Notes under the pieces: model-generated
The model's input: the letters and a program-made list of their open reading frames with translations, nothing else
The model's database searches: none
What the model was told of the DNA's origin: nothing
Part shown: positions 1-14,800 of the stretch, one piece after another
How positions within the stretch are numbered: the first letter of the stretch is position 1
Layout of the letters: each line of letters starts with the position of its first letter
Assembly: GCA_018818365.1 (NCBI GenBank)
Contig: JAHISH010000191.1
Span: 1 to 16,088, forward strand
DNA: 16,088 nucleotides
Reading direction: 5' to 3'
DNA from: Candidatus Omnitrophota bacterium
Lineage (GTDB): Bacteria > Omnitrophota > Gorgyraeia > Gygaellales > Profunditerraquicolaceae
Program-made: the position numbers and the translations under genes

Positions 1-242
1 CTCTTCTCTATCCCCTTATTAAGCGCCTCCGCGTAAAAAAGATTCTCCGGGCTGACAGAAAGGAGCGCGTGCGGATACCGAATCTTTATTTCTTTTTGGA
101 GCGCAGCATCTAAGGAGTTATCGATAACGATTATCTCGCAAGGATGCAATGTCTGCGCATTGAGGGAATCAAGCAACTGCCAAAGATAGGGGCTTTTTCC
201 GAAACTGACCACTATCGCACTGACTCCCGCATTGCTGCTCAT
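1..242 (-). CDS. Family-2 (GT-A) glycosyltransferase, N-terminal part only
   Basis: Only the first 80 residues are present; the gene runs off the left edge. The ATG at 242-240 overlaps the stop of the upstream ABC transporter in an ATGA arrangement, which fixes the start and suggests coupled translation. The visible protein begins with a GT2-type Rossmann strand (AIVVSFGKSPYLWQLLDSL), then a second strand ending in an acidic nucleotide-sugar motif (CEIIVIDNS), then NLFYAEALNKGIE, where GT2 enzymes usually have a G-N-x-G-x-A-x-A-x-N-x-G segment. The family transfers a sugar from an activated donor to an acceptor. Position as the last visible gene of the peptide operon suggests it either decorates the peptide or belongs to cell-envelope work that follows. 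The acceptor cannot be told from this fragment. Confidence 0.8.
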   Translation of the reverse strand, partial: MSSNAGVSAIVVSFGKSPYLWQLLDSLNAQTLHPCEIIVIDNSLDAALQKEIKIRYPHALLSVSPENLFYAEALNKGIEK

Positions 243-1963
243 GAGGAAATTCTCTGTGCGGAAAAGAAATTTGCAAGCTCTTGATCCTGATCAATAAGCT
301 CATTGAAAACCCCGTGCAGTATGTGACGGGAATTCTTGAAGAAGTAAACGAATTGGCATGATGCCACCGTAGATAAACGGTGGGATACAATGAGCACGGT
401 GGCATCCGGAAGGGCTCTTCTTATCCCCGCGAGAATCTTCTGTTCAATGGCAGAATCCACAGATGACATGCCTTCATCGAGAATCAAAATCCGTGGACGC
501 GCAAGGATTGCCCTAGCAATAGAGACCCGCTGCTTCTGCCCCTCAGAAAGCTTACAGGCATTCTCTCCAATGACCGTCTCCAAGCCCTGAGGCAGGTTTC
601 TGACCAGTTCATCGAGGCAGGCTATCTCTATTGCCGCGCCAATCTCTTGCGGGCTCGCCAAAGGGTTGGCATAGGTAATATTGTAACCCAAAGTATCATT
701 CCACAGATATGGCTCTTGCAAGGCAACGCAGACCTGCTCTTTTAGTGAATTCGCAGAAATCATTGTAAGCGGCTTGCCGTCAATACAAATCTGCCCTTTC
801 TGCGGATGGAAAAGCCGAAGGATAAGGTTAATAATGGTCGTCTTCCCGCACCCTGAAGGCCCTACTAATGCCGAGATACTTCCTCCGGGTATCGAGAAAC
901 TAATATTCTCCAAGATAGCCGCCCCCGGTTTATAACTAAAATGAAGATCCTGAAACTCAATACCCGCCCTATCAAAATGATATGCCTTGGCACCGTCACC
1001 TTCTGCGTGCTCATCAGGGGCATCAAGGATCTTCTCTAACCTTTTACCTGAGACATTTCCAAAAAGCGCGTTACGGAAGAACGCCACAAACGATGAGTGT
1101 AAACCCGCAAGCTGGCTCAAATACAGAGAGACCGCGCTTAACGTTCCTAAGGTCATCTTCCCTTGGATCACTTGATAGGCGCCGTAACAGATAATCAATC
1201 CAAGGACAATCCTGCCTATGGAATCATTGGCGAAGATGCTTCCGGCTTCCCATTTTGCTGCCTTCAGATTCAAACGGGCCAAGTGCAGTAAGCCCTTGAG
1301 GTATCGTCGTACCTCCTGGCTCTCTTTCCCTAAGGCCTTTACCAGCTGAATCCGGGAAAAAACCTCCTGTAAACGCTGAAAGACCCCCTGCGATCGCTCC
1401 ATCCTTAATTTAAAGATCTCACTTAACTTCCGGTTGAAATAATACGGCAGGAGAAAGAGAAACGGCGCAAGAGTGAAGGACAAGACTGCCATCTTCCAAT
1501 CAAGGCGGATAATAATCAGAACGGTCAGGATTACCCGAGGAAGAAGCCGTATTCCATTCGGAAGCGTATCTGAAACCAGAGAGGTAACCTGGTCAACATC
1601 ATAATTAATACGGTAAAGGATCTCTCCGGTTGAACTATCTTGAAAAAAATAATACGGCACCCTTTGAAGTTTCTTAAACACGCGGCTGGCCAGTTGCAGA
1701 TTAATGCGCACCCTGATGAAACTGCTTAGATAACTACTGATACTCTGAAAGACACCATTAAGGATAAAGGTAAATCCCCCTATTCCCGCAAGAACAAGGA
1801 ATAAGGTTATATCCCGCTGGACAAAAGCCCGGTCAATAATGAGTTTGGTCAGATACGGATTCACCAGTCCCAATACGGCTGAAGCCCCGCTTAATAAAAG
1901 AATAAGGATCTCTTTCTTTAAAAAAGGACGCAAATAGCGGAAATACTTCAGTACACTCGTCAT
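239..1963 (-). CDS. ABC exporter (fused membrane and ATPase domains), probable peptide exporter
   Basis: A 574-residue half-transporter with a type-I exporter membrane domain (about residues 10-300, several hydrophobic helices) followed by an ATP-binding domain (about 330-570). Visible motifs are Walker A GPSGCGKT (368-375), Q-loop Gln416, signature LSEGQ (472-476), Walker B ILILDE (492-497), D-loop SSVD (500-503) and H-loop His528. There is no N-terminal C39 peptidase domain, so any leader removal must be done elsewhere; the signal-peptidase-like protein two genes upstream is the obvious candidate. The start is the ATG at 1963-1961, overlapping the stop of the radical SAM gene by 4 bp (ATGA); a longer open frame extends 40 codons upstream but only inside that gene. 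It ends with the same ATGA overlap into the glycosyltransferase. Peptide export is inferred from context; a lipid or drug exporter of the same fold is possible. Confidence 0.9.
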   Translation of the reverse strand: MTSVLKYFRYLRPFLKKEILILLLSGASAVLGLVNPYLTKLIIDRAFVQRDITLFLVLAGIGGFTFILNGVFQSISSYLSSFIRVRINLQLASRVFKKLQRVPYYFFQDSSTGEILYRINYDVDQVTSLVSDTLPNGIRLLPRVILTVLIIIRLDWKMAVLSFTLAPFLFLLPYYFNRKLSEIFKLRMERSQGVFQRLQEVFSRIQLVKALGKESQEVRRYLKGLLHLARLNLKAAKWEAGSIFANDSIGRIVLGLIICYGAYQVIQGKMTLGTLSAVSLYLSQLAGLHSSFVAFFRNALFGNVSGKRLEKILDAPDEHAEGDGAKAYHFDRAGIEFQDLHFSYKPGAAILENISFSIPGGSISALVGPSGCGKTTIINLILRLFHPQKGQICIDGKPLTMISANSLKEQVCVALQEPYLWNDTLGYNITYANPLASPQEIGAAIEIACLDELVRNLPQGLETVIGENACKLSEGQKQRVSIARAILARPRILILDEGMSSVDSAIEQKILAGIRRALPDATVLIVSHRLSTVASCQFVYFFKNSRHILHGVFNELIDQDQELANFFSAQRISS

Positions 1964-3096
1964 AAACTTACGGGTAACGGAATATCCTTCATAATGGATT
2001 GAGAACGCTTCCCTGCCGCATCGCACAAATAAGGAATAAGGGAATCCAATTCCCCCGCCTCCAGGTACGACTGCGCCGGACACCAGCTACAGAGATAGCG
2101 GAAAGTACAATTGCGGCATTGTGCCAAAAGTGCTTGATTCTGCACACGCTTAGTAAGCGCCTGAGGAATACAACCTTCCCACACGTCAGTCAAGCTATGA
2201 TTCCTAAGATCAAAAATGCATTCAGGATGGCATAAAGAAAGACACATCCTGCACCAACCATCATATCCTATCGCAAGGCTTCCTCTGCCTGTGCCGCATC
2301 GGAAGAGATGGTCACAATCTCTTTCCTGCGGATACTGCGCCTGTAATCTACGGCATTCCTTTTTGAGCGCGGTATGGCGCGTAGAATCCAAGGTCTCAAG
2401 CGTGCCAATCTCTTGAGGGGTTAATCGCTCGTTGCGAATTTCCTGATTCCGCAGGTGATCCCTATCAAAACGCAGGTGTAAAAAAGGATCAAAACGAAAT
2501 GGCGCCTTACTGTATTCACGACACAATGCGGTAATCTGGGGCAACTCTTGGATATTAGACCTTAAAGCCATAGCCTTAAGATTGAATTTGATATTATTCT
2601 CTAAGAGAAGCGCAATCCCTTCTTTGAACGCCTCAAAAGAACCTGATTTACGGGTTATGCGCTCATAGGTATCTTTGGTCGCGCCATAGACGGTGATATC
2701 AAGGTCCCTCGGGGGATAACGCGTAAACAAATGCACATGTTCTTTAGTAAAGAGTGTGGCGTTGGTAAAAACCGAAATAACCATTCCTTTACGCTTAAGA
2801 TACATGTAGATATCAAAAAAATCATGCCTCAGAAGCGGTTCGCCTCCGGTCACCAGAGCCCATAAAGCTCCTAATGAGGATGATTCATCGACAAGTGCGG
2901 TTATCTCTTGAAAAGATAATTCTGCGTCCTGCGCCGCAAGATCGTTCTCCGGCACATTCAGATAACAATGGCGGCAATTGAGGTTACAGCGTGCGGAAAG
3001 TTCCAGGGTAAAGGAAAAAAGCCGGCGCCTCTTTCGCATCGCTTCCCAGGCATTGAAAGACGAAATGGGTTGCACACTGATAAAATCCTTATTCAC
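1960..3096 (-). CDS. Radical SAM/SPASM peptide-modifying enzyme (third of three)
   Basis: A 378-residue radical SAM enzyme. The [4Fe-4S]-SAM cluster motif is C37-x3-C41-x2-C44 in the context CNLNCRHCY, with the SAM-binding GGEP motif at 84-87. The C-terminal SPASM region carries Cys267, Cys282, Cys327, Cys330, Cys336, Cys339 and Cys358, enough for auxiliary iron-sulfur clusters; extra Cys285, Cys289, Cys293 and Cys309 are not shared with its two paralogues here. Such enzymes generate a 5'-deoxyadenosyl radical and modify ribosomal peptides, for example by thioether or carbon-carbon crosslinks or epimerisation. The start is GTG at 3096-3094, preceded by AAGGAG at a good distance; it overlaps the upstream gene by 8 bp. 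It shares the GGEP-to-LYG/VYG layout with the enzymes at 3862-5049 and 5231-7219, so the three look like duplicated paralogues. The reaction itself cannot be read from the sequence. Confidence 0.9.
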   Translation of the reverse strand: MNKDFISVQPISSFNAWEAMRKRRRLFSFTLELSARCNLNCRHCYLNVPENDLAAQDAELSFQEITALVDESSSLGALWALVTGGEPLLRHDFFDIYMYLKRKGMVISVFTNATLFTKEHVHLFTRYPPRDLDITVYGATKDTYERITRKSGSFEAFKEGIALLLENNIKFNLKAMALRSNIQELPQITALCREYSKAPFRFDPFLHLRFDRDHLRNQEIRNERLTPQEIGTLETLDSTRHTALKKECRRLQAQYPQERDCDHLFRCGTGRGSLAIGYDGWCRMCLSLCHPECIFDLRNHSLTDVWEGCIPQALTKRVQNQALLAQCRNCTFRYLCSWCPAQSYLEAGELDSLIPYLCDAAGKRSQSIMKDIPLPVSL

Positions 3097-3634
3097 CAGA
3101 CGCTCCTTGTACCTTGCGTACGCAAATACGGCACTGCCACAAAAAAAGAAATAGTGGCCTTAAGACTCCCATCCTGCTTAAGATTGCGAAAATGAAACTA
3201 TCTCTGCCCAGGCTCAATCGAACCCTCTTTCCTTTACGTTCAGCACAGGCCAAACGCCCGAGGATATCCCTGCGTGCCACAATCCCGTCTGGCGCAGAAC
3301 AACAATCTCCTTTAAGCATATACCCTGAACGGCTACTCCCCACGATCCGGTGTACCGTAAGATTGTTATGATGAGTATCGAGAAATGCCACGACTTCGCC
3401 GAGACCAAAGGAATCATCCTTGCAAGGTACAACAGTAAGGATATCGTTTTCTTTGATAAACGGCCACATGCTCATGCCTTTCGCGGAAAAACGCACCATC
3501 GCATCTCTGGCTAATAATTCCGTAAAGATCTGCGCAAATAACGATCCGGAAAGCAAAATAGTCTTATTCTTGCCGGGGTATCTGGTGGAGAATTCTTCTT
3601 CTAAAGAGTTCTTCGGTAAATCCGATGACATCAC
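3089..3634 (-). CDS. S24/S26 signal-peptidase-like protease of the peptide cluster
   Basis: Up to 181 residues. The motif GMSMWPFIKENDIL (from Gly53) contains the expected nucleophile Ser55. Further on, LTVHRIV contains His95 where bacterial type-I signal peptidases have the general-base Lys, and YMLKGD ends in Asp110. A Ser/His/Asp set resembles the archaeal and ER (Sec11-type) branch of family S26. A hydrophobic stretch near the C-terminus (about 148-166) may hold it at the membrane. In this cluster it is the best candidate for removing the leader of the precursor peptide. The start is uncertain: GTG at 3634-3632 (or the next codon, ATG) has a strong AGGAG at 7 nt but overlaps the PqqD-like gene by about 71 bp; a TTG at 3556-3554 would give a more usual length of about 155 residues. 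It overlaps the downstream gene by 8 bp. Confidence 0.75.
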   Translation of the reverse strand: MMSSDLPKNSLEEEFSTRYPGKNKTILLSGSLFAQIFTELLARDAMVRFSAKGMSMWPFIKENDILTVVPCKDDSFGLGEVVAFLDTHHNNLTVHRIVGSSRSGYMLKGDCCSAPDGIVARRDILGRLACAERKGKRVRLSLGRDSFIFAILSRMGVLRPLFLFLWQCRICVRKVQGASGE

Positions 3635-3878
3635 GTTGGATCTCCTCTATCGGAGTATCATATTCGGTGCCTAAGTCCAGGGCAATCTCCCGAAGGGTTC
3701 GCTTCCCATCCATCCGATCCCAGATTGCCTTGCCCTCTTCATTGAGGGTAAAGACAGCATCTTCAAAATCCCCCACCCCCGCAGAGATTGGCACCAGGAC
3801 AAATTCTCCTCCGACCTGCCGGGCCACCACTTCCTCCGAAGGGACATAGACAGTATCAATGCTAATTGTTTTCTCCAT
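3564..3878 (-). CDS. PqqD-like RiPP recognition element protein
   Basis: A 104-residue protein with the PqqD-family pattern: ARQVGGEFVLVPI in the N-terminal beta hairpin, then FTLNEEGKAIWDRMDGKRT leading into the winged-helix part, then a Tyr-Asp and a helix ending ...FTEELFRRRIL. PqqD-type domains bind the leader of a precursor peptide and present the core to the modifying enzyme. Here it stands alone between two radical SAM genes, so it could serve all of them. The start chosen is the ATG at 3878-3876, preceded by AAAGGA; an in-frame ATG at 3902 would add eight residues (MEKKGSHR) and cannot be excluded. With the chosen start it overlaps the end of the upstream radical SAM gene by 17 bp. 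Confidence 0.85.
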   Translation of the reverse strand: MEKTISIDTVYVPSEEVVARQVGGEFVLVPISAGVGDFEDAVFTLNEEGKAIWDRMDGKRTLREIALDLGTEYDTPIEEIQRDVIGFTEELFRRRILHQIPRQE

Positions 3879-5049
3879 ACGATGCGATCCTTTCTTTTCC
3901 ATTCTTAACTTCCCACCCTTGCTCGCCTATTCCCAAAAGCCCCACGGAACGTGCCTGCACATGGGCGATTTCACAGAAATACTCTATCGGCGTATCGAGG
4001 CTGCCATGCTCCAGCCATGACTTCGCGGGGCACTGCAGGCATAGCCCTTTTAAGAAACAGCGCGCGCAACGGCGCAGATACTCCGGATTGGTGGATTTAA
4101 TCTTTCTCCACTGTGGGAGAAGACTGGTGACTGCCTCTTTCAAAGAACCGTCTTTAAGGTCGTAGCTCAACCGGGGATCTTTTAAGAGCATACAAAGCCG
4201 CAATCTACCGTACGGATCAATGTCTGCCTTATTGATACCGCCGCCACAGGAGAAGATATTCTCTCCTGGAATCTTCATAAACTTCCGACAGAACTGCGCT
4301 AACTTACCCGAATAATCCGGCCGGAACTGCCTCAAGGATTCAAGGATATCTTCGGCGGATATCCGTCTGGCGCATATTTGTTTATTGCGGACAGAATCTC
4401 TTCTGGCGTGTAAATTAAGGTATAGTACAAATTGTACTGGATTCTCCCCTGACGAACCAAAAAGCGTCTCTCCCCATCTTACAAACGCTTCTTTATCCTC
4501 CTTGTTTTCGGGAAGGATCACCGCTTTTACGGCAAAAGGAATCTTGTATTCCTGTAATAAGTGTATCCCTCTCCACGCAGCTTCAAAACTTCCCGGCCTG
4601 CCGGTTACTGATTCATAGGTCTTAGGGGCCATCCCATAAAGGCTTACTTCTATTGGCTCTAAAGGCCGTATACGGCAAAAAAGTTGGGCAATGGTTGGGG
4701 TGATAAGGGTCGCATTAGTAAATAGGGTGACGCGAAGGCCCCGTCTTCTTGCATAGACATAGAGCTCTGCGAAATCCGGGCGCACCAAGGGTTCTCCTCC
4801 GCTGAAACGGACCCCAAGACAGCCCAATGCGGCCGCATCACGCAAGATAGTTTTAATCTCCTGTGCCGAAAGTTCCCTCCCACGGACACTTTCATCATGC
4901 AACGGAAGGTTGTTATAACAATGGACACAATTGTTGTTGCAGCGTTCGGTAAGTTCGATATCCAAACGGGAAAGAATTGGTCTGGCCGCGTTTGAAGAAA
5001 ATAGAGAATTCAGACTTTTACGTACGACAAACTCAGTAGTAGAGCTCAT
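3862..5049 (-). CDS. Radical SAM/SPASM peptide-modifying enzyme (second of three)
   Basis: A 395-residue radical SAM enzyme immediately downstream of the precursor peptide gene. The cluster motif is C37-x3-C41-x2-C44 (CNNNCVHCY) and GGEP lies at 84-87. The SPASM region has the seven-cysteine layout Cys268, Cys286, Cys328-x2-Cys331-x5-Cys337-x2-Cys340, Cys359. It is clearly related to the N-terminal half of the fusion enzyme at 5231-7219, sharing CNNNC, FSGGEPL-RPDF and TLITP-IAQL segments, and more distantly to the enzyme at 1960-3096. Placement 27 bp after the precursor suggests it acts on that peptide. The ribosome-binding site is weak (AAAGAAG) compared with that of the precursor, consistent with a lower dose of enzyme than of substrate. 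The type of modification is unknown; Cys-containing cores often point to thioether chemistry, but other crosslinks are possible. Confidence 0.9.
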   Translation of the reverse strand: MSSTTEFVVRKSLNSLFSSNAARPILSRLDIELTERCNNNCVHCYNNLPLHDESVRGRELSAQEIKTILRDAAALGCLGVRFSGGEPLVRPDFAELYVYARRRGLRVTLFTNATLITPTIAQLFCRIRPLEPIEVSLYGMAPKTYESVTGRPGSFEAAWRGIHLLQEYKIPFAVKAVILPENKEDKEAFVRWGETLFGSSGENPVQFVLYLNLHARRDSVRNKQICARRISAEDILESLRQFRPDYSGKLAQFCRKFMKIPGENIFSCGGGINKADIDPYGRLRLCMLLKDPRLSYDLKDGSLKEAVTSLLPQWRKIKSTNPEYLRRCARCFLKGLCLQCPAKSWLEHGSLDTPIEYFCEIAHVQARSVGLLGIGEQGWEVKNGKERIASYGENN

Positions 5050-5055
5050 ATACGC

Positions 5056-5067
5056 TTCTTTAAAGAA
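5056..5067 (-). promoter_or_regulatory. Palindrome covering the ribosome-binding site of the second radical SAM gene
   Basis: The 12-bp perfect palindrome TTCTTTAAAGAA lies in the 27-bp gap between the precursor stop and the next ATG, and its right half supplies the AAAGAA of the weak Shine-Dalgarno. A short stem of four pairs could form and reduce initiation. This is a minor structural observation; no function is shown. Confidence 0.25.
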
Positions 5068-5076
5068 TTATTGTGT

Positions 5077-5253
5077 TTAAGAACCTATCGCATCACAATC
5101 GGCGCAGCCGGCGGTAGTACACTCTAAATTGCCGGATACGGTTGCTGAAGGCGGGGTCCCTAACTGGTCTTTACAGGATGTTAACACCGCCTCTTCGGCT
5201 CTTAATCGCGCCAAAATAATCAATTCAGGTTTACGCCAGGATTTCTTTTGCAT
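5077..5253 (-). CDS. RiPP precursor peptide, 58 residues
   Basis: A short gene with a very strong ribosome-binding site (GGGAGG, 7 nt before the ATG at 5253-5251); its first 23 bp overlap the end of the radical SAM-kinase fusion gene. The N-terminal half is a basic, helix-like leader (KKSWRKPELIILARLRAEEA at 3-22), followed by VLTSCKD with Cys27. The C-terminal half is small, polar and rich in Gly, Ala, Ser and Thr, with Cys45, Cys50 and Cys53 (C-x4-C-x2-C) and a terminal Ser58 after DAIG. No signal peptide is seen. From memory, leaders of the form K-P-E-L-x-x-L-x-R-x-x-x-E-E-x-V-L-x-x-C-K recur in short peptides next to radical SAM genes of uncultured bacteria, but this was not searched. Position, size, leader/core split and neighbours together make a precursor the best reading. 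An upstream in-frame ATG at 5331 lies wholly inside the fusion gene and lacks support. Confidence 0.85.
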   Translation of the reverse strand: MQKKSWRKPELIILARLRAEEAVLTSCKDQLGTPPSATVSGNLECTTAGCADCDAIGS

Positions 5254-7219
5254 TCGCGTACCTCCCTTCAATAATATCAATAATCTTTCCGCTCGTATCA
5301 AAACACACTCTATAACAGGGGATTGTCTCAATCATCTTTTCAATAAACCAAAGAGTCTTCTCCCACCAGGCCTGTGTTACCAAAGGCCTGATCAGAGTCT
5401 CCAAGAGAATCTTTGTTAATTGTTTTCTGTCCGTAATCTCGATAACCCGGTTCTCGGAAGATTTTTCTAAGAAGAAAATTGCCTCCAGAGGGGCCGAACC
5501 GGATGATACCTGACGGTAATCGCCATGGCTCCAGGTGCCGTGTATTCTGAAACCTTCCTCATGGCGGCGCACGATAATACGCTCATCACAGAGCACCTCT
5601 GCGCGCGTCTCCCACATCCGTGCCATGGTTGATTTTCCCGCTTCCGACCTGCCCAGGAACAAAAGCCCCTGTCCGTGAAAATTTACTCCGCAGGCATGGA
5701 AATAAACCCCTTGTTTCTCTGCGAGAAAATGCGTCAGGAATATCTGGTCAGAAGGAATAAACGCAAGACTGGCAAATCCTCCTTTTAAAAAAAGCTCTTT
5801 CTTTCTCGGGCTATGGTAGAGCACTACCCTGGAATGATGCTGATTACAGACTGCGATGGCGCCCTCTGGATCCTGCGTGCCATCCGGCAGGAGACTGACA
5901 TACACCCACGCATGACGCAGACGATAAACTGCCCACGGCGGCCGGTGATAGACAAGACTTCCTTTTTTAAGACGTTCCAAGGATGGAAATCCGAAGTAAT
6001 TCTTCAAATGCATGGTATCTGCATCTATATTCAAATCCGATTCATCGATCGCAAAAGGAGCAAACTTCGGCTGGAATACCTTCCGGGAAAAAGGAAGCTC
6101 GGACTCCACCCGTACCTGTATACCAGCGACTCTGAAATAACGACAATGACTCTCCTGCCACTGTTTTCTGACCCCACGTGCCTCCTGCGCAATCTCGCAA
6201 AGCGATTCTACGTGTGCGCCATAATGCCGATGCTCAAGATAGACCTGGGCCGGGCACTGCCGACAATGGCCTTGCGCCGCACACTCACCGCAGGTATGGG
6301 GGCCTGCTTCATTTTTTTGATAACGGACTGATGCATGCGGGATAAACTCATCCCAGAAGTAGCCAAATGATTGGGTACGCAGGTCGCAGCGTAAAGATGG
6401 GTCCTTAATGAGCTGACAAGGCGCTGCCCGGCCATAGGGGTCGATATGAAATCCCTGACGGCGTAAGAAACAGAAGAATAAATATCCTTCTTCATGATGA
6501 TGCGCCTTCCGGCATGAGGCATCTATCTTTTCATCTAAGAAATACGGCCCTTCTAACTCAAGTGATTCTTTTGAAGAGAGCCGCTGTGCGCGTATCTGCG
6601 TATTTACCTGCGTGTCACCGTATGCGGAAAGTTGCAACCAGGTAGCTCCGATGCGCCATTTGCCGCTGAGTGATTCGGCAAGGCGGATCATATCATTTAA
6701 TTGGGAATAATTATCTTTCAGAGGGATAATCTGTATAGTACAAGCAGCTCCTGCTTCCTTAAGATATGCCAGGCCCTGCATAGTCTGTTGGAATGAGCCG
6801 GGGTTTTGCGTAATATGGTCGTGAATTTCGGCGGTTGCGCCGTACAGAGAAACCAGATTAGTGCCTTTTCGAGTAAGTAATTGCGCAATTGCGGGGGTAA
6901 TTAAGGTACCGTTAGTGACAAGAAGGTACTCTGTGGTGCGAGCAGTTATATAGTCGAATATCTCGGGAAAATCAGGACGAAAGAGCGGCTCTCCTCCGGA
7001 GAAAAGCCAACGCCGGCAGCCGAATTGGCTCGTTTGGTCGACGATACGGCGGATTTCAGAAAAAAACATTTCTCTGGTCTGTGAATAATCCTGTTGAGGG
7101 ATACGCACCCAACAGTGGCGGCAATTATTATTGCAACGGTAGGTAATATCTATCTGTCCCTGCAGGGGCAACCGAGGAAGATAAGAAGAAGTCTTTACAC
7201 GCACATACGAACCATACAT
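5231..7219 (-). CDS. Radical SAM/SPASM enzyme fused to an HPr-kinase-like domain
   Basis: A 662-residue two-domain protein. Residues about 20-350 form a radical SAM/SPASM enzyme: C29-x3-C33-x2-C36 (CNNNCRHCW), GGEP at 75-78, and SPASM cysteines 250, 268, 310, 313, 319, 322 and 341. Residues about 355-655 resemble HPr kinase-related proteins: P-loop GRSEAGKST (523-531), then an acidic segment VLCDERIIVRR with Asp545-Glu546, then IHGTWSHGD (559-567). HprK-like proteins occur in several peptide clusters, and some (ThcK/PadeK type) phosphorylate the C-terminal Ser of lasso peptides; the precursor here also ends in Ser. The start is the ATG at 7219-7217; it has no Shine-Dalgarno and sits where the promoter at 7226-7254 would begin the transcript, so a leaderless mRNA is likely. 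A longer open frame upstream enters the TPR gene and is rejected. The stop overlaps the precursor start by 23 bp. Confidence 0.88.
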   Translation of the reverse strand: MYGSYVRVKTSSYLPRLPLQGQIDITYRCNNNCRHCWVRIPQQDYSQTREMFFSEIRRIVDQTSQFGCRRWLFSGGEPLFRPDFPEIFDYITARTTEYLLVTNGTLITPAIAQLLTRKGTNLVSLYGATAEIHDHITQNPGSFQQTMQGLAYLKEAGAACTIQIIPLKDNYSQLNDMIRLAESLSGKWRIGATWLQLSAYGDTQVNTQIRAQRLSSKESLELEGPYFLDEKIDASCRKAHHHEEGYLFFCFLRRQGFHIDPYGRAAPCQLIKDPSLRCDLRTQSFGYFWDEFIPHASVRYQKNEAGPHTCGECAAQGHCRQCPAQVYLEHRHYGAHVESLCEIAQEARGVRKQWQESHCRYFRVAGIQVRVESELPFSRKVFQPKFAPFAIDESDLNIDADTMHLKNYFGFPSLERLKKGSLVYHRPPWAVYRLRHAWVYVSLLPDGTQDPEGAIAVCNQHHSRVVLYHSPRKKELFLKGGFASLAFIPSDQIFLTHFLAEKQGVYFHACGVNFHGQGLLFLGRSEAGKSTMARMWETRAEVLCDERIIVRRHEEGFRIHGTWSHGDYRQVSSGSAPLEAIFFLEKSSENRVIEITDRKQLTKILLETLIRPLVTQAWWEKTLWFIEKMIETIPCYRVCFDTSGKIIDIIEGRYANAKEILA

Positions 7220-7225
7220 AAAAGA

Positions 7226-7254
7226 ATTATAACACAATCCCCCCCTTCTGTAAA
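7226..7254 (-). promoter_or_regulatory. Sigma-70-type promoter of the peptide operon with G7 tract in the spacer
   Basis: On the minus strand, TTTACA (7254-7249; 5 of 6 to consensus) is followed by a 17-bp spacer and a perfect TATAAT (7231-7226). It lies in the 46-bp gap between the TPR gene stop and the fusion gene ATG. The spacer contains seven G in a row (7245-7239). The predicted start of transcription falls at or within a few bases of the ATG at 7219, implying a leaderless message. Confidence 0.7.
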
Positions 7255-7265
7255 CCGGGGACCTG

Positions 7266-8840
7266 CTATTTGGGAAGGTTGTCGAGCAGAATGCGAGCCT
7301 CGGAATTAGCGGGGTCAAGACGCAATACCTCTTGATACTCTTTCTTTGCTTCTTCGTACCTATTCTGGCGTTCAAATAAAAGCCCTAACCCAAGATGGGC
7401 CTGGATATAATCGGGAAATGCGTTAAGGATAATCCGATACTGCTCTTCCGCGTGGCCGAAATCATCTAAATCCTGAAATACGCGCGCTAACGCAACCCGC
7501 GCCTGGTAAAATCCTGCGTCCAGCAAGACCGCCTTCTGATAGAACCCGACTGCATCAGGTTTATTTGCCTCCTGCACATGCAGCCATCCCAAGATATAAT
7601 ACAAGTAAGGATTCTCCGGGAGCGCGGCACTTGCCTTCTTATATTCATCAACCGAACGTTGGCGCAACCCGCCTTTCTCATAAACTGCTGCCAATGCCAC
7701 ATGCGCCTGCGCCTCTTCTATCTTTCGCAACTTATCTTTTACTTCAGTATCTTGCGGATCATATTTAACAATCTCCTTGTATTCGGCAATCGCCTCTTTG
7801 AATTTGCCTTGATTTTCGTATAAGGCTGCGATCCGCTGATAAAGCTGGACATCCTTAGGGAAATCCTCAAGCAGCTTCTTATACTCATCCACCGCATTCT
7901 CCCGCTCGCCTCGCAACTCATAGAGCGCGGCAAGCTCCTTGATTATTTCTGTCCGCATGTCTTTTAACTCCGAGATCCGCACATGCTCCTCAAGGACCTG
8001 GGTATAGATATTCATATCGGTATAAAAAGAAACCCTCTCGTAGACCTTATCAATCTCATCGGGCAATAGCTCAAGGCACCTGCGGTATTGGCTGATTGCT
8101 TCATCATATTGCTTCCGAGGGAATTGATGATATAAGAACGCAAGCCTCCTGCGTGCGTCCACATACTCAGGATTAATGCTTAAGACTTTCTGGTACATCT
8201 CTATGGCCTGGTCAAGGCTATTCTTTTTTTCGTAAATAAACCCTAACTTGTAGTGCGCCTCCAAATTATCGGGATTGCGCCTGATCGCACGGTGGTACTC
8301 CGCCGCGCTGTCGTCGTAAACACCCTTACTAAGGTAGACATTACCCATGAAATTGGGGTCAAGCTCGCGGATCTTCTCAAGCTGCACTTCAACTAATCTC
8401 CGCTCATTCTTGGCCTCATAGACCAACGCCAGGTTATAATGCGCGCCGATATTAGCCGGATCAAGCGAAACGACCTTCTGAAGACTCTGGACCGCCCCTT
8501 CGGCGTCACCGGTCAAAAAGCGCGCGGTGCCTAAATTATTCCAGACGATGGCCGCGTACGGGAAAAAACCAAGCGCCTTTTCGTAGGCCTCAACGCTTGA
8601 AGAATATACCCCCATCTTCTGATATATCCTGCCTAAAAGGAAGATGGCTTCCAGACTATGAGACGCCCAGGATAACGATCTTTTTACCTTCTGCAAAGAG
8701 AGATCGACTTCTTGCTTATTGTACGCGCTCTGCGCCTGTTGTAAATAGCAGTCGGCAATAAAAGGAGCCAACGCCTGCCAGGAAAGAAAGGCCGCCACAA
8801 CTGAGATTCCCAATTGTTTGAGTAATCGGTTCACTGCCAT
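7266..8840 (-). CDS. Membrane-anchored tetratricopeptide repeat (TPR) protein
   Basis: A 524-residue protein. Residues about 11-29 (GISVVAAFLSWQALAPFIA) are a hydrophobic anchor or uncleaved signal. The rest is a chain of roughly ten or more TPR units of about 34 residues, seen from repeated patterns such as AHYKLGFIYEKKNSLDQAIE and repeat ends like LDPAN, NPEYVDA and DPQDTEV. TPR arrays bind partner proteins and have no catalytic residues. It starts 6 bp after the stop of the O-antigen-ligase-like gene, so the two are probably co-transcribed; such pairs are common in surface polysaccharide or membrane assembly loci. Its exact partner cannot be read from the sequence. The ATG at 8840-8838 has only a weak ribosome-binding site, fitting translational linkage to the upstream gene. 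Confidence 0.88.
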   Translation of the reverse strand: MAVNRLLKQLGISVVAAFLSWQALAPFIADCYLQQAQSAYNKQEVDLSLQKVKRSLSWASHSLEAIFLLGRIYQKMGVYSSSVEAYEKALGFFPYAAIVWNNLGTARFLTGDAEGAVQSLQKVVSLDPANIGAHYNLALVYEAKNERRLVEVQLEKIRELDPNFMGNVYLSKGVYDDSAAEYHRAIRRNPDNLEAHYKLGFIYEKKNSLDQAIEMYQKVLSINPEYVDARRRLAFLYHQFPRKQYDEAISQYRRCLELLPDEIDKVYERVSFYTDMNIYTQVLEEHVRISELKDMRTEIIKELAALYELRGERENAVDEYKKLLEDFPKDVQLYQRIAALYENQGKFKEAIAEYKEIVKYDPQDTEVKDKLRKIEEAQAHVALAAVYEKGGLRQRSVDEYKKASAALPENPYLYYILGWLHVQEANKPDAVGFYQKAVLLDAGFYQARVALARVFQDLDDFGHAEEQYRIILNAFPDYIQAHLGLGLLFERQNRYEEAKKEYQEVLRLDPANSEARILLDNLPK

Positions 8841-8846
8841 ATTTTT

Positions 8847-10040
8847 TTACACTTCTATTTTAGCCAAAACTTCCGCTGATCCCAATAAAAGCCAGAACCC
8901 CATGACAGACGCAGGGATGTATAACACGGGATTAAACAATGCTTGTATCAACAGTGAGATAATACTACAAAAAAGCCCTACCGCTAAAAATGACAGAGTG
9001 TACTTTCTCCTAAAGGGCCTAGCAAAAAGAGAAAATACCATCCCCAAGAATCCCAAGAAGCATAATCCCCCGACCACCCCTGTCTCAACTAAAATCTCCA
9101 GATAATCATTATGCATATGCGTATATTTTATTCCTTTAGGAGTGACTTCACGCTCCTCTTGGCTTCGATAGCGCGGATACAAGACCTTGAAATTGCCTAT
9201 TCCCACCCCGAGCACAGGATGATCGCCAAGGATCTGCGGGGCAGAACGCCAAAGATAGACGCGAGTGAGGTTGCGGATATTGATATTCTCCCCCAGCGCA
9301 CCTTTCTTACTTAACAGGAAGAATAATCCCGCAATAAGTATTATGCTGGAAACTGCAATAACCTTTAAAACCCTCCTTGTCTTCTGTTCCCCGCGTACCC
9401 ATACAAGCGCAAGGCAATAGAGTACTGCGGCCCCAATACCGATATAGGCCCCCCGCGAACGGGTCAGAACAAGAAAGACAAAGACCAGAATTGATGACGC
9501 CCCATAGAGCAGCGCAGGATATATCCTTCTTTGAGAAAAATAGGTAATACTCGATGCGATGCCCAAAGGCAATGCAATGCTTAAGAATTGCGAGAAGAAT
9601 ATTGGGTTTCCGAAGGTAGAGGTATAGGCAAGGCGTAATACTTCAAATTTAATTCCGCGCACTTCATAAATACTATAAAGACAGGCGCAGACTGCAGCGC
9701 AAATAACCGCCAAACAGATCTTTTGGGTCTCTTCTGGGGTGCGCACGGTATTAGTAAGATAAAAATATAAGCCTATACCCGCTGCCCACAGTAAAAGCGA
9801 TCCTATGCTTTCGTATTTGTTAAAGGAAGTAATAAGTGAAAGCGCGCAAGCCAGAAAATATACTATCGCCGCCCATCCCAGGCGGCTGATAGTGATCTTC
9901 GGCAGACGCATGAGCCACCGCCAGGCCAGAAGGATCACCCCCAGCTCGAATAGGACAATTTTTACCAAGCCGTAGATTTCAGTGGTAGAGTGGCTAAAGA
10001 CAAGCGGCACAAAGAATATTAAGCACAAGAGTGTTTTCAT
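8847..10040 (-). CDS. O-antigen ligase / Wzy-like polytopic membrane protein
   Basis: A 397-residue protein made mostly of hydrophobic helices (about ten or more). It has the marks of the Wzy_C / O-antigen ligase family: TRSRGAYIG (193-201), LGVGIGNF (277-284) in the large periplasmic loop, and THMHNDYLEILVETG (307-321) with His308/His310 and Glu residues. The family moves or polymerises glycans carried on undecaprenyl phosphate, either ligating O-antigen to lipid A core or glycosylating proteins. Which of these applies here is not decidable; the neighbouring genes do not include a full polysaccharide cluster within this window. The start is the ATG at 10040-10038, after a short stretch that overlaps a dispersed repeat. 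It is followed after 6 bp by the TPR gene. Confidence 0.85.
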   Translation of the reverse strand: MKTLLCLIFFVPLVFSHSTTEIYGLVKIVLFELGVILLAWRWLMRLPKITISRLGWAAIVYFLACALSLITSFNKYESIGSLLLWAAGIGLYFYLTNTVRTPEETQKICLAVICAAVCACLYSIYEVRGIKFEVLRLAYTSTFGNPIFFSQFLSIALPLGIASSITYFSQRRIYPALLYGASSILVFVFLVLTRSRGAYIGIGAAVLYCLALVWVRGEQKTRRVLKVIAVSSIILIAGLFFLLSKKGALGENINIRNLTRVYLWRSAPQILGDHPVLGVGIGNFKVLYPRYRSQEEREVTPKGIKYTHMHNDYLEILVETGVVGGLCFLGFLGMVFSLFARPFRRKYTLSFLAVGLFCSIISLLIQALFNPVLYIPASVMGFWLLLGSAEVLAKIEV

Positions 10041-10257: not shown

Positions 10258-10488
10258 CTACGAATACTGTTGCGCGTAGCGATCAATAAGTTTACGGATC
10301 ATCCTCTGATACTTAGTATGGTATTGCTGTGCATAGCGTTTAAAGAACGCAACACTTTCTTTACTCAGCGCAATCGTTACCTTGACGGTTTCTTCCGATA
10401 CTGCCAATGCTTCGGGAGGCGGAAGAAAATCATCAATTTTCTTAAGCATCCCCACAGGCATATGCTCATCCCTTATCATCTTCTTCAT
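10258..10488 (-). CDS. brnA: BrnA-type antitoxin (ribbon-helix-helix regulator)
   Basis: A 76-residue protein. The C-terminal half has the ribbon-helix-helix pattern of BrnA antitoxins: VKVTIALSKESVAFFKRYAQ, then HTKYQRMIRKLIDRYAQQY. BrnA neutralises the BrnT ribonuclease toxin and, as a DNA-binding dimer, represses its own operon. The ATG at 10488-10486 has a strong GGGAGGAAG upstream and overlaps the end of brnT by 23 bp, the usual toxin-first order of this family. An in-frame ATG at 10524 lacks a comparable ribosome-binding site. It is followed by an intrinsic terminator at 10226-10184. Confidence 0.88.
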   Translation of the reverse strand: MKKMIRDEHMPVGMLKKIDDFLPPPEALAVSEETVKVTIALSKESVAFFKRYAQQYHTKYQRMIRKLIDRYAQQYS

Positions 10489-10756
10489 AATACTTCCTCC
10501 CTTTTCTCCAATAGCCTGCCCCAAAGATTCTTATCTTATCGTTGCGATACATAAACCTCACCGTAAGGATTCGATGACCTACGATCCCTATACAGAAGTA
10601 GCGTTCTTCGTTTTTGCTATGACGCGCATCAGTAAAAATCTTTCTTTTGGGGTCACTAAATTCCTGCGTGGCGGTTAAAAAATTAACCCCATGTTTCTTG
10701 CTATTTTCCTTGTCCCGTTTCTCATCCCACACAAAACTGCCAAGGAACCTATCCAT
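10466..10756 (-). CDS. brnT: BrnT-type ribonuclease toxin (DUF497), with a changed C-terminal motif
   Basis: A 96-residue protein of the BrnT/DUF497 family, shown by FVWDEKRDKENSKKHGVNF at the N-terminus (the family's F-x-W-D-x-x-K-x-x-x-N-x-x-K-H-G-V-x-F), then EFSDP, a Arg-x-x-x-IG core strand, and RKYYEE at the end. BrnT has a RelE-like fold and cleaves RNA; it is inhibited by BrnA. The C-terminal strand normally reads R-I-I-S-A-R, but here it is RIFGAG, so the usual Ser and Arg are both Gly. This may weaken or abolish activity. It has its own promoter at 10765-10793, no clear Shine-Dalgarno, and overlaps brnA by 23 bp. Confidence 0.88.
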   Translation of the reverse strand: MDRFLGSFVWDEKRDKENSKKHGVNFLTATQEFSDPKRKIFTDARHSKNEERYFCIGIVGHRILTVRFMYRNDKIRIFGAGYWRKGRKYYEEDDKG

Positions 10757-10952: not shown

Positions 10953-11168
10953 CTATCGCTTAATATGTTCGGTAAGTGCCATTTCAACCTGCAGTTCCTT
11001 CTTGCCGCCAAAAAGCCTCGCGGCATTAAGGAATTCGATGCCTACCGGTTGACCCGACGCATCATAATCAAGGATGATACCTTTTGCAATTTCATCGCTT
11101 TCCTGAATTTTTGTTTGTCTAAACCGAATATATAACGCATCTGCCTTAGGGTCATAATTCATCTTCAT
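10953..11168 (-). CDS. DUF2283 protein, probable partner or antitoxin of the DUF4258 protein
   Basis: A 71-residue protein matching the DUF2283 pattern closely: MNYDPKADALYIRFRQTKI at the start, GIILDYDASGQPVGIEFLNA in the middle, ending in a charged helix. The biochemical role of this family is not established. It is often found directly beside DUF4258 genes, and the pair is commonly regarded as a putative toxin-antitoxin system; that reading is inference. The ATG at 11168-11166 overlaps the stop of the DUF4258 gene by 4 bp (ATGA) and has a good GGAGG upstream. It is followed by a strong intrinsic terminator. Confidence 0.82.
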   Translation of the reverse strand: MKMNYDPKADALYIRFRQTKIQESDEIAKGIILDYDASGQPVGIEFLNAARLFGGKKELQVEMALTEHIKR

Positions 11169-11467
11169 TTCTTCTTCCTCCAGTACTTAGAGATCTTTGA
11201 AGTTCTATAGACCGTACGGATGACTTGTGTTCCCGCATACTCATCGACAAAAATTCGCAATAAATATTCTTTCTGAGACTGACTATCCCGATAGGCCTTA
11301 TGGATAATCTTCTGCCCCGCGGAATGAATAACCTGATCAGGTTTTTTAAGTGCTTCTAAAACAATAGCTTCATCAATGCCCCGCTCGGCCAACCGATCCC
11401 GAGCGTGCCTAAGCCAGGTAATACTCCTTACCCCATTGCTTTTATTTTCTCTATCAAAGTGTATCAT
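11165..11467 (-). CDS. DUF4258 protein, probable small toxin
   Basis: A 100-residue protein with the DUF4258 pattern: RHARDRLAERGIDEAIVLEA, then KKPDQVI, then a strand pair ending in VIRTVYRTSKISKYW. DUF4258 proteins have a short alpha/beta fold reminiscent of RelE/HigB-type toxins and often sit upstream of a DUF2283 gene, as here. Function in RNA cleavage is a family-level suspicion, not shown. The ATG at 11467-11465 has a very strong AGGAGGGG ribosome-binding site. It forms a two-gene unit with the DUF2283 gene (4-bp overlap). Its location beside a second toxin-antitoxin pair and mobile-like repeats suggests an acquired accessory island. Confidence 0.82.
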   Translation of the reverse strand: MIHFDRENKSNGVRSITWLRHARDRLAERGIDEAIVLEALKKPDQVIHSAGQKIIHKAYRDSQSQKEYLLRIFVDEYAGTQVIRTVYRTSKISKYWRKKK

Positions 11468-11852: not shown

Positions 11853-14800
11853 TTAGCCGCTGTGATAGGTGCAGGCGATGAGTTTTTCGGTCTCGCCTTC
11901 CTGCCAAACTACCGGCTCCAATGCCTTGGCAACGGAGTAATTGTGCAGAATATCATCATCCTGTTTCTCCGCTATACCCGGCACTCCCGATGCCTGCAGA
12001 TAATCTCCGACGGCAATGTCACCGTTTGTATTGGTTACCCAGATAAACCCGGTACCAAGTGCCAATACCAGGTCATTACCTTCATCATTGGTCCCGCCAA
12101 AAACACCGTATACTGCCTGTGATTTCTTGGTAGCGCAGATACGAGACTTAACCAACTGCTCCTTGCTCATGAACTTCTCCCCTGTTGCCTCTAAGAGCAT
12201 GTTTGGTTTCAGGCCGGTCTTATCGTCTATCTTGGTCCAGTGAGAACCGGTAAAGGTGTTATAGGCGATAACTCCCGCACTAGCAGTACCTGCGATGCTG
12301 CCTTCCGTCCCACTTGTGGAGTCGAATTTCATAAATACATCAGCCGCAGTAATACTTGCCTGCGCGGCCCTGATTTGGATTTTGACTGCATCGGTATTAT
12401 CTGCCGAAGAAACATGCAGCGGAGCGCCGGGATTAGTGTGCCCTGCGCCGACGTTTCCAGCGAAAACAACCTGATTGGATCCTGTCTGGGTAACCGGACC
12501 ACTCGTAGATAAGCCGCTTGCGCTAAAGACTGCGGCATTATCAAAGTAAGCAGTGGCATCAATCTCTAGGTTCCCTGCGACAAAGAGGTCCGCAGTTCCT
12601 GCGCCATGGCCGGGAGTAATAGAGCCAACGTGGATGTCTCCCACTGTAAAAATTCTCCCATTATCAGAATCCAAGAATACACTTGGCGTACCGTTTGACG
12701 CAACATATAATCCCCACAGATTATTAGTAAGGCCTGTGAAGGTAATGCCACCCCCACCGCTGTACCCATAGCCTACACCATACATGTTACCTAAGGTTGT
12801 CGTTCCGGGTACATACGATCCCCCTATAGAATAAATTGCACCCGATGTGGTGGTAGTTTCAACACTAGAATATTGTCCGTTCAAATAACCCGCTCCGGCA
12901 GCACTACGATATAGCGGCCCGGAAGTTGTTAATGAAGTTAATGTGCCAAGAGAAGTGATACTTGGTTGTGCTGCGGTTGTTACTGTTCCGGCAGTGGTAG
13001 CGCTTGTGGCAGTGGTAGCGCTAGAGGCTGTTAAGGTATTAGAAACCATGGCGTCAGTAATACAGTCGGTACAACCCCCATCATCTACTGCATCTTGCAG
13101 TGTAAAACTTAATCTGGCATCTTCTATTGTCCCAGATGAAAAGAAGGCAGTTGCCGAGTCTCCTGAATTTGCAGTTGTAGCGGTGGTGGCAGTGGTTGCG
13201 GAACCAACGATGTTCATCGTCTGTCCGGATAGAAACGTTGCTACCTTAGCCGCGGTTGCGCTACGATAATAGTTATCGCCGAATTTTCCCATAAGATAGG
13301 TCAAGGTGCCGGCAGAAACATCATCGGCACTATTCATATAACTACCCATGAAATACCGAGTAGTTAAATCACCGTTCGCATCCCTTAATGCAAGGGTATT
13401 TGCGGTGGCTGCAGTAGCAGTAGTGTAGGTATCAACGGTATCCGCATCCAATCCGCCACCTGAACCTTCTGAGGTAAAGGTCAACCCGTGCACATTCGTC
13501 GTTGCCTGCGAATGCGTATATGCAGTATCCCAGTTAGAAGTACTATCCGTAACCACTGACAACGCACCAGTACCGGTAGTTACTTTTACTAAACCTGTCG
13601 ATAAGCCGGTACTCAAATAGCCCTGCGCGGTGTCTGCACTTACCGCTGACCCGTCGTCGGAGAATGCTGAACCGTAGACCGTACCCAATACCTGCAGCTT
13701 AGCGCTGGAAGGATTGGTAGTCCCGATGCCGACGTTGGTGCCAGTGTCATAGATAACCGATTTTGTAATAGTATCCGCATCGGAGAATTTACCTACATAG
13801 CCCGTATTGGTACCTGAATAATCAACTAGTGAGGTTCCCCACACCCTTGAATCAACTTCATCCGTAGTCAGCGCATTGGAACCATTGAGAATCACCACCG
13901 AATTGTCAGTTCCTGTCCCAAGGCCCGTGAACGTAATGGTCCCGCTGGAAGATAGTCCTGTTAAGCCTGACGCAACGCCGGGTCCAGTGATATCCCACAC
14001 ATTGGAGTTAATCGCGACCGCATCTCCATTATCACCAAGAGTTACTGCTGCGTTGGCGTTTAGTGCTCCGTTAGCAGTAAGTGTCCCTGAGAGTGTCGCC
14101 GCAGCTGCGGTTACTGTTCCGGTAAGAGTCGGGCTTGCGGAAAGCACAAGGTTTGTCGATCCGGTCGAGCTGCTTACATCGCTTACCGAAGAAACCAAGT
14201 TGGCAAGCGTAATGGTGGATGCAAGATTCTTGCTTGCGTCGGTGGCAACAAGACTTGATGCAGTCAACCCACCGAAATTAATCGTGCCACTGGAAGTGAT
14301 TCCCGTTAACCCTGACGCAACACCAGGTCCGGTTATATCCCACACATTGGAGTTAATCGCGACCGCGTCTCCATTATCACCAAGAGTTACTGCTCCATTA
14401 CCAGTAAGAGTACCGGCAAGTGTCAAACCACCTCCTGCCACAAAATCAGTACCAGTGTCTCCTATATTGGTAATGAGGCTACTATCCATATCCAGCGCGC
14501 CGCCAAAGGTAAGCGTGCTGTTAGTAACGGTGACCCCTCCTATATAGGTATCGCCGTCAACGTAGAGTTTGTAGTTACCGGGGTTGGTGGTGCCGATGCC
14601 GACATTACCACTTGCGGTCACTAATAATCCCGGGGTAGGCGAGGTACCTGCCTGCAGTAATCCGAGAGGCGTAACAGTGCCGATACCTACATTCCCTGCT
14701 GAAGTATCCACATATAACTGATTGGTATTGACTGCAAAGTCGCCTGTCGTACTTAACGCGACATTCAAATTAGTCCCTGCGCTGGGAGTAACGGTCAAGG

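Follow-up and report, generated by a model that had tools for sequence, protein, structure and literature searches.

A radical SAM–HprK kinase fusion locus of Candidatus Omnitrophota probably directs a pathway for a crosslinked and C-terminally phosphorylated ribosomal peptide

A contig of Candidatus Omnitrophota (JAHISH010000191.1, assembly GCA_018818365.1), analysed here over its entire length of 16,088 nt and referred to as the window, carries a gene cluster that probably encodes a RiPP pathway giving a radical-SAM-crosslinked, C-terminally phosphorylated peptide. The pathway follows the logic of Linear Polyphosphorylated Peptides (LPP) and SynChlorMet (SCM) but falls under the definition of neither. 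The PqqD-like protein would bind the WxxPxL leader of a 58-residue precursor and deliver the peptide both to three radical SAM/SPASM enzymes and to the HprK-like kinase that forms part of one of these proteins. Each radical SAM enzyme would form one radical crosslink at the C-terminal cysteines, and the fused one would handle an extra cysteine near the C-terminus. A thioether is the likeliest crosslink, by comparison with sactipeptides and ranthipeptides, as cysteine conservation and the SPASM fold suggest. The fused kinase would phosphorylate the C-terminal Ser, leaving a group on which a nucleotidyltransferase or a glycosyltransferase could possibly act. The S26-type Ser/His protease would then cut off the leader, and an MsbA-like pump would finally export the product. 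Gene content, conservation, fold, catalytic residues, the C-terminal Ser/Thr and the association between cysteines and radical SAM enzymes were computed; every chemical step, the sequence of these steps, the place where the leader is cut and the function of the product are inferred. The product of such clusters may be a kind of peptide natural product not described before. None of the passages covered from the open-licence PMC literature (PMC10368454, PMC4289311, PMC9902471, PMC13381572) describes a radical SAM–kinase RiPP, which falls short of proof of absence.

The eight genes lie on the minus strand, as do all features given below, in the order radical SAM–HprK fusion, Cys peptide, radical SAM/SPASM-2, PqqD-like RiPP recognition element (RRE), S26-type protease, radical SAM/SPASM-3, MsbA-like exporter and glycosyltransferase. 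Six of the seven junctions overlap (23, 17, 71, 8, 4 and 4 nt) and one is a gap of 27 nt, in agreement with the nearly complete overlap described in the initial annotation. A predicted sigma-70-like promoter directly before the first gene (7226–7254; TTTACA-17-TATAAT with TG before the −10 element, 6 nt ahead of the first ATG) has 11 of 12 consensus positions; it is a consensus match, and the scan of a 601-nt stretch gave two such sites against 0.8 expected in shuffles. Neither Rfam families nor tRNA genes were found in the window. The exporter (239–1963; PF00664 147.7 bits, PF00005 104.6 bits) scores 305.9 bits against the MsbA profile, under the curated cut-off of 602, and the Pfam scan found no peptidase domain in it. 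The genes of the proposed eight-gene operon are all present at the positions initially given. The GT2 glycosyltransferase (1–242; PF00535 35.6 bits) is partial because the window is an entire contig that ends inside the locus. At the other end, a TPR protein gene (7266–8840) and a Wzy_C O-antigen-ligase-like gene (8847–10040; PF04932 87.5 bits) adjoin the locus on the same strand with a gap of 46 nt to its first gene. These possibly associated genes (7266–10040) indicate that the functional locus may extend past the boundary initially drawn.

The first gene joins a radical SAM/SPASM domain, rSAM_A (6065–7219, residues 1–385), to an HprK-like kinase domain (5231–6064, residues 386–662). The radical SAM motif CxxxCxxC is formed by C29, C33 and C36, and the SPASM-type cysteines are C250, C268, C310, C313, C319, C322 and C341; all are invariant across 36 aligned fusions. 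The model of the whole fusion has a pLDDT of 88.0, and the structures nearest to its radical SAM domain are SkfB, SuiB, a sactipeptide/thioether maturase (5why) and PqqE, with the EpeE epimerase also among the structural neighbours. The locus thereby resembles sactipeptides and ranthipeptides, in which radical SAM/SPASM maturases (SkfB, CteB-type) act on Cys-rich peptides: the SPASM cysteines are present and such maturases are the nearest solved structures to the first domain. Neither class is known to have a kinase fusion or a separate set of PqqD, S26 and HprK proteins.

The assignment of the second domain to HprK is weak by single sequence (14.3 bits, under the cut-off of the profile scan) but firm by alignment, predicted fold and structure comparison. 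Its landmarks are H508, GRSEAGKS at 523–530 and D545-E546. The AlphaFold model of the domain has a pLDDT of 91.3. Foldseek gave 38 matches to it at E<=0.001, every one either HprK/P or PEP carboxykinase, which shares the HprK/P fold. When the kinase alignment was searched against the sequences of solved structures, most matches were to ABC proteins through the P-loop, with HprK at E 7e-4, a result that is uninformative alone. Among 50 aligned sequences, the active-site residues are invariant or nearly so and correspond to the H-G-G-G-K-S-D-D set described for lasso kinases (PMC10368454) with one difference: at the middle Gly position, 41 sequences have Glu and 9 have Gly. Counting against the proposal, the window kinase carries Glu at the second Asp position, where 49 of the 50 have Asp, and its branch in the tree is long (1.38).

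The other two radical SAM/SPASM enzymes lie at 3862–5049 (enzyme 2) and 1960–3096 (enzyme 3). PF04055 is above its cut-off in the fusion, enzyme 2 and enzyme 3 (78.3, 96.7 and 65.2 bits); the SPASM score of enzyme 3, 20.6 bits, is slightly below the cut-off of 21.5. In a tree of 164 sequences, the three fall into three supported clades, including 58 sequences for enzyme 2 and 54 for enzyme 3 (support 99 each). The PqqD-like RRE (3564–3878, alternative start 3902) matches PF05402 with 51.7 bits. The presumed leader peptidase is an S26/archaeal-type signal-peptidase-like protein (3089–3634), for which sigpep_I_arch is the best NCBIfam match (34.9 bits, cut-off 51.85); PF00717 is also under its cut-off (16.3 bits). 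The S26 assignment is weak by single sequence but firm by its conserved Ser/His/Asp: in an alignment of 44 sequences including the window's, which omits lower-scoring and fused S26 proteins, Ser51, His91 and Asp106 are invariant and Asp112 is 98% conserved (numbering of the aligned segment). In the LPP peptidase LppS, inactivation of S29, H68 or D93 is described as stopping leader cleavage (PMC13381572).

The precursor (5077–5253; 58 residues) was aligned with 20 relatives. A ribosome-site-like stretch, GGGAGG, precedes its ATG. The leader (about 5170–5253; WRKPEL to EEAVLTSCK) carries the WxxPxL motif of the lasso/LPP RRE type (PMC13381572), and the Cys-rich end (5080–5169) closes with a Ser codon (5080–5082). 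W6, P9, L24, C27, C45, C50 and C53 are invariant in the 21 aligned precursors. It is hardly credible that this small ORF arose by chance and has no role, the enzymes using another peptide. A search against 5.8 billion proteins did match only the precursor itself, but relies on shared 5-mers, and no peptide was counted in five of the 32 loci whose contigs leave room for one (L109, L141, L152, L154 and L176). Against this stand the invariant residues, the ribosome-site-like stretch and a leader profile that at E<=1e-3 matches 91 real ORFs and none among reversed or shuffled ones. The concern attached to the initial annotation, that homologous loci might lack the short peptide, is not borne out, since 27 of the 32 loci have it.

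Among 87 family peptides collected with a leader-only profile, the C-terminal residue is Ser in 72 and Thr in 9; a terminal Ser is found in 9.7% of 6257 other short ORFs. Such a Ser/Thr terminus in 81 of the 87 is as expected of a paeninodin-like C-terminal kinase. The residue does not, however, split kinase-bearing from kinase-less genomes in the two usable kinase-less ones, whose peptides end in Thr (G024) and Ser (G023). Furthermore, the kinase targets described for LPP and the lasso peptide BsfA are core residue 3, not the C-terminus (PMC13381572, PMC10368454), which counts against the proposal, and LPP is described as carrying phosphate on core Ser3 (PMC13381572).

The PqqD plus radical SAM/SPASM architecture, with PqqE as a structural neighbour, also brings to mind PQQ or mycofactocin, in which case the peptide would be consumed and its side chains converted into a small-molecule cofactor or redox carrier. 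This is very unlikely because a cofactor precursor is conserved, whereas the cores of these precursors are strongly variable and at least 16 profile matches are spread over 9 contigs of a single genome (G026); a dedicated kinase, a leader protease and often an exporter also argue for a peptide product. The single precursor originally assigned to the locus agrees with the one leader-profile match in the window's own genome, but several precursors per locus are possible in relatives.

The gene set is conserved in many bacteria and some methanogens. A strong kinase match is present in 73 of 77 GTDB loci, and the loci occur in Omnitrophota, Aminicenantes, Desulfobacterota, Chlorobiaceae, methanogens and one isolate, Desulfofustis glycolicus DSM 9705 being at least one culturable carrier. 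In the 32 loci with contig room, radical SAM-2 is found in 30, PqqD in 32, S26 in 29 and radical SAM-3 in 32. This adds a ribosomal peptide family common to uncultured bacteria and methanogens.

The number of core cysteines is associated with the number of radical SAM enzymes: at least three are found in 44 of the 53 peptides that belong to fusion loci, compared with 2 of 17 from loci that have an unfused kinase and lack that radical SAM. The 9 remaining fusion-locus peptides and these 2 are exceptions; phylogenetically independent pairs number only 5, of which about 4 agree (p 0.125, underpowered). One unfused locus (L176) has a leader-bearing peptide with zero Cys. L235 pairs a three-Cys peptide with a single radical SAM match and no kinase on the contig other than a distant unfused one, although a second locus exists in its genome. 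Because the leader cysteine of 'CK' is also invariant, a strict count of one enzyme per cysteine is not established. We tentatively suggest, as a possibility somewhat short of an even chance, that crosslink number is modular: each extra radical SAM would add one substrate cysteine, and the third would come fused to the kinase for the C-terminal Ser/Thr. The tail would then be finished by a single bifunctional protein, and one enzyme set could serve at least 16 dispersed precursors in trans, in a RiPP class spanning Bacteria and Archaea. Loci with a fused kinase, three radical SAMs and three cysteines can be set against those with an unfused kinase and two of each, a natural experiment that offers a direct route to assigning a residue to each paralogous radical SAM, a recurring problem in multi-enzyme RiPP pathways.

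The closest characterised class is LPP, as far as it is described for LppA/B/K/S/D/N of Paenibacillus alginolyticus (PMC13381572). Common to both are a discrete RRE, an HprK-like kinase (here by fold and active-site residues), an archaeal-type S26 leader peptidase with Ser/His/Asp (here putative, the archaeal-type profile being best but below its cut-off), an MsbA-like exporter, a nucleotidyltransferase (here in many relatives, with none seen on the window contig), a [Y/W]xxPx[L/V] leader and nearby polysaccharide genes. However, the window has three radical SAM/SPASM enzymes, one fused to the kinase, whereas the term radical SAM is absent from the main text of PMC13381572. The LPP leader YxxPxVLxHQxIxFETxxS is not matched by the window's WRKPELIILARLRAEEAVLTSCK, whose W is invariant over 21 sequences. 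Moreover, the core of the window family is Cys-rich and ends in Ser/Thr, and the family reaches beyond Bacillota into other phyla and into Archaea. Two maturation logics so far treated apart would meet in the locus and be fused in one polypeptide: cysteine chemistry by radical SAM enzymes and the kinase/S26/RRE pathway of LPP, itself newly described.

SynChlorMet (NCBIfam TIGR04248–TIGR04251) likewise comprises an HprK-like kinase, PqqD, two radical SAM/SPASM enzymes and an S26-like ORF, with W/YxxPxL in candidate precursors. The locus is rather improbably a divergent SynChlorMet cassette, that is, the same pathway and product type lying just under the curated cut-offs. True SCM loci in two genomes (G150 and G239) pass the Scm cut-offs and contain ScmC, ScmD, ScmE, ScmF and an adjacent S26-like ORF, and ScmC matches the window kinase with E 1.2e-12. 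Nevertheless, the window stays far below the cut-offs for ScmC (47.7 bits, 125 for TIGR04249), ScmD (26.6, 100), and, at best among its three radical SAMs, ScmF (94.2, 400) and ScmE (83.3, 400), and the AhbD heme synthase profile outscores ScmE and ScmF on all three. The ScmC cut-off is passed by 2 of 285 genomes of the phylum, the window's genome being below it. Furthermore, the SCM kinase is unfused, and the candidate SCM precursors, picked by eye, differ in length (77 and 120 residues), in cysteine pattern (many Cys across glycine-rich stretches) and in C-terminus (Thr and Leu). SynChlorMet membership was rejected on cut-offs for the window, for the related loci L137 and L138 and for the more distant L064. 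The initial view that the combination matches no named class therefore holds, since the Scm cut-offs are missed, the LPP leader differs and the LPP main text is without radical SAM; the combination is not without precedent, because the SCM cassette already has a kinase, PqqD, two radical SAMs and an S26-like ORF.

Paeninodin-type phosphorylated lasso peptides are described with a WxxP leader, an HprK-like kinase with a C-terminal Ser substrate, a nucleotidyltransferase and an ABC exporter (PMC10368454, PMC13381572), and the window precursor also ends in Ser. The window locus, by contrast, has radical SAMs. A lasso peptide was rejected for want of leader peptidase B2: PF13471 was found in none of 10 system-bearing genomes (drafts, 74–97% complete) and in 1 of 14 controls. 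The Pfam scan of 15 window proteins, on a contig ending inside the locus, gave no macrolactam cyclase match.

In another reading, the peptides would belong to the cell envelope. The radical SAMs would then epimerise or otherwise modify the peptide rather than crosslink it, and the kinase would make a phospho-serine anchor to surface polysaccharide. The adjoining Wzy_C, TPR and glycosyltransferase genes, the EpeE neighbour and the frequent location of LPP and paeninodin clusters near capsule loci (PMC13381572) suit this reading. We consider it unlikely, although worth keeping in view, since the association between an extra radical SAM and an extra Cys suits cysteine chemistry better than epimerisation, and a Wzy_C-type cluster is near just 9 of 78 loci, the window counted (one other member was verified). 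In favour of the crosslinked phosphopeptide, a PF14907-type nucleotidyltransferase family, which also occurs in LPP and paeninodin clusters (PMC13381572), lies near 27 of 78 loci (one representative was verified); none was seen on the window contig, which stops inside the locus, and PF14907 is found on another contig (C72) of the same genome.

The window spans the whole of contig C45 (16088 nt), one of 295 contigs in a 1.63-Mb draft genome of 80.9% completeness. The locus begins at 7219 on the minus strand and extends to the end of the contig at position 1. The first gene, starting at 7219, encodes a 662-aa fusion of a radical SAM/SPASM domain with an HprK-like kinase domain and is followed on the same strand by genes for a 58-aa precursor peptide, radical SAM-2, a PqqD-like protein, an S26-type protease, radical SAM-3, an MsbA-like exporter and, in eighth place, a GT2 glycosyltransferase truncated by the contig end. 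Six of the seven gene junctions overlap. A putative promoter, recognized by its near match to the consensus, precedes the fusion gene, and Wzy_C and TPR genes lie directly upstream on the same strand. In the proposed pathway, the radical SAM enzymes would modify the peptide under guidance of the RiPP recognition element (RRE), here the PqqD-like protein, the kinase would phosphorylate the peptide C-terminus, the S26 protease would remove the leader and the ABC pump would export the product.

A search of GTDB r220 genomes with the kinase alignment identified 77 such loci, many of them cut by contig ends; the kinase match is strong in 73. In 32 loci the contig extends more than 3 kb before and more than 6.5 kb after the kinase. 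Of these, 27 have the peptide, 30 radical SAM-2, 32 PqqD, 29 S26 and 32 radical SAM-3; all five occur together in 24, and an exporter is detectable by profile in 11. No peptide was counted in five of the 32 (L109, L141, L152, L154 and L176); one of them, L176, contains a Cys-free ORF that bears the leader. By record title, the carriers are Omnitrophota, Aminicenantes, several Desulfobacterota, other 'Deltaproteobacteria', Chlorobiaceae, Planctomycetota, Victivallaceae, KSB1, WOR-1, Chloroflexota and archaeal Methanomicrobiales; the sole isolate is Desulfofustis glycolicus DSM 9705, nearly all others being metagenome-assembled genomes. Bacteria and archaea are intermixed in the kinase tree (71 rows, from which fragments and a few kinases lacking the P-loop pattern were excluded), which is consistent with horizontal transfer. 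When 164 radical SAM domains are placed in a tree, they fall into three clades and no more (support 99-100), each corresponding to one gene; because the labels were taken from profile scores, this split serves as a consistency check. In protein databases, 186 clusters match the kinase region at E<=1e-20; among the matches listed, 111 of 120 clusters also carry a radical SAM Pfam, and named clusters are labelled radical SAM or hypothetical proteins. Pfam PF27840.1 appears on database rows matching the fusion kinase domain (window 5231-6064) and probably falls on their kinase part; the Pfam scans of the present analysis did not yield this model.

The consensus of 21 aligned peptides is W-x-x-P-x-L followed by L.R, E, VL and CK, after which come another three Cys that are invariant; according to the description of Linear Polyphosphorylated Peptides (LPP; PMC13381572), WxxPxL is of the leader type bound by lasso and LPP RREs. 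A leader-only profile, blind to the peptide tail, collected 87 distinct peptides and had zero matches in reversed and shuffled ORFs. The C-terminal residue is Ser in 72, Thr in 9 and another in 6 (Ser 64 and Thr 8 of 78 when profile-building rows are excluded), and 9.7% of 6257 other short ORFs end in Ser. Two of the six exceptions, in L115, seem truncated, two in L110 lack the usual cysteines, and L180 and L137 account for the rest. In 63 of the 87 peptides the last Cys occupies position -7; in the window peptide it occupies -6. Because one genome (G026), from the same taxonomic family as the window's genome, has at least 16 precursor matches over 9 contigs (16 of 29 candidates scored) and one such kinase, the maturation enzymes can probably act on precursors in trans. 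Three stretches of this genome (L034, L037, L038) hold one to three precursor peptides each with no maturation enzyme matched there, and two of the three peptides in L038 flank a tRNA-Pro gene. A related but distinct family (L239, G247:C64) has four adjacent peptides with LNPEQA(V/I)LSCCD leaders, all ending in Ser.

The family shares with LPP the set of kinase, RRE, S26 and exporter and, in many relatives of the window locus, a nucleotidyltransferase. However, radical SAMs are not mentioned in the main text of the LPP description, and the LPP leader consensus is another one. Mutation of S29, H68 or D93 in the LPP peptidase LppS abolishes leader cleavage (PMC13381572), and Ser, His and Asp are kept in 44 aligned S26 sequences of the present family. 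Judged by position, an LPP-like cut would fall before CK, so that the invariant CK Cys would also belong to the core. The commonest other neighbour, in 27 of 78 loci, is a PF14907-type nucleotidyltransferase family (one representative verified); it is fused to an S26 domain in G052 and lies on contig C72 in the window's genome. The NCBIfam SynChlorMet (SCM) cassette shares a kinase, PqqD, two radical SAMs and an S26-like ORF with the window locus. SCM membership was rejected: window proteins fall under the SCM cut-offs, as do those tested from L137, L138 and L064, while true SCM loci found here score above them, and candidate SCM precursors look unlike the window-family peptides. Lasso peptidase B2 is absent in all 10 genomes with the system that were searched. 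On these comparisons, the family was placed in none of these classes; the literature searched contained no description of such a system. Three other loci (L065, L067, L068) combine an unfused HprK, a radical SAM and PqqD with short YxKP-leader peptides, all three ending in Ser, and L065 has an S26-like domain fused to GNAT and PF14907 domains.

Some loci have an unfused kinase and lack the fused radical SAM, leaving two radical SAMs. Core cysteines were counted in 72 of the 87 peptides (the rest are in duplicate or kinase-less loci, or unparsable), two of which go with contig-cut kinases. At least three core Cys occur in 44 of 53 fusion-locus peptides (exactly three in 39) versus 2 of 17 unfused-locus peptides (exactly two in 14), with a Fisher p of 1.8e-7 when kinship is ignored; one L136 peptide was parsed with a leader Cys included, its class being unaffected. 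Per kinase-tree row, the figures are 31 of 32 fusion rows versus 2 of 15 unfused rows, in a set that excludes L115 and L174 (both kinase kinds), kinases cut by a contig end and peptides with a C-terminal residue other than Ser/Thr, includes a partial L113 peptide added by hand and has two L159 rows with identical peptides. On the kinase tree, 14 changes of fusion state are counted, at least 9 of them on supported branches, when contig-cut kinases are taken as unfused; the cleaned set gives 7 changes. Only 5 phylogenetically independent pairs lie on supported branches, of which a mean of 3.9 agree, 0.0 oppose and 1.1 show no difference; just one of 200 random pairings contained an opposing pair, and the median p of 0.125 is the smallest attainable. 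The two last Cys are spaced by 3 or 4 in 41 of 52 fusion peptides and by 7 to 14 in 13 of 17 unfused ones. We read these patterns to mean that the fused radical SAM acts on the additional cysteine in the terminal CxxC, which on our reading would sit a few residues from the Ser presumed to be modified by the fusion's kinase domain. By eye, fusion loci outside the counted set have 4, 2 and 4 (L226), 3 and 3 (L230) and 3 (L232) core Cys per peptide; in L235, where the only kinase on the contig is distant and unfused, a peptide has three.

Elsewhere on the minus strand of the window, a BrnT toxin (71.3 bits) overlaps a BrnA-like antitoxin (21.8 bits, under the cut-off) at 10258-10756. Small DUF2283 and DUF4258 genes with a 4-nt overlap lie at 10953-11467, an arrangement that we take to be toxin-antitoxin-like. 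The protein encoded at 11853-16088 (about 1400 residues, open at the contig end) is repetitive, with repeats of the VGIG/GTTNPG type, and had no match in a Pfam scan; the long TTG-started ORFs on the opposite strand are perhaps a by-product of its repeats.
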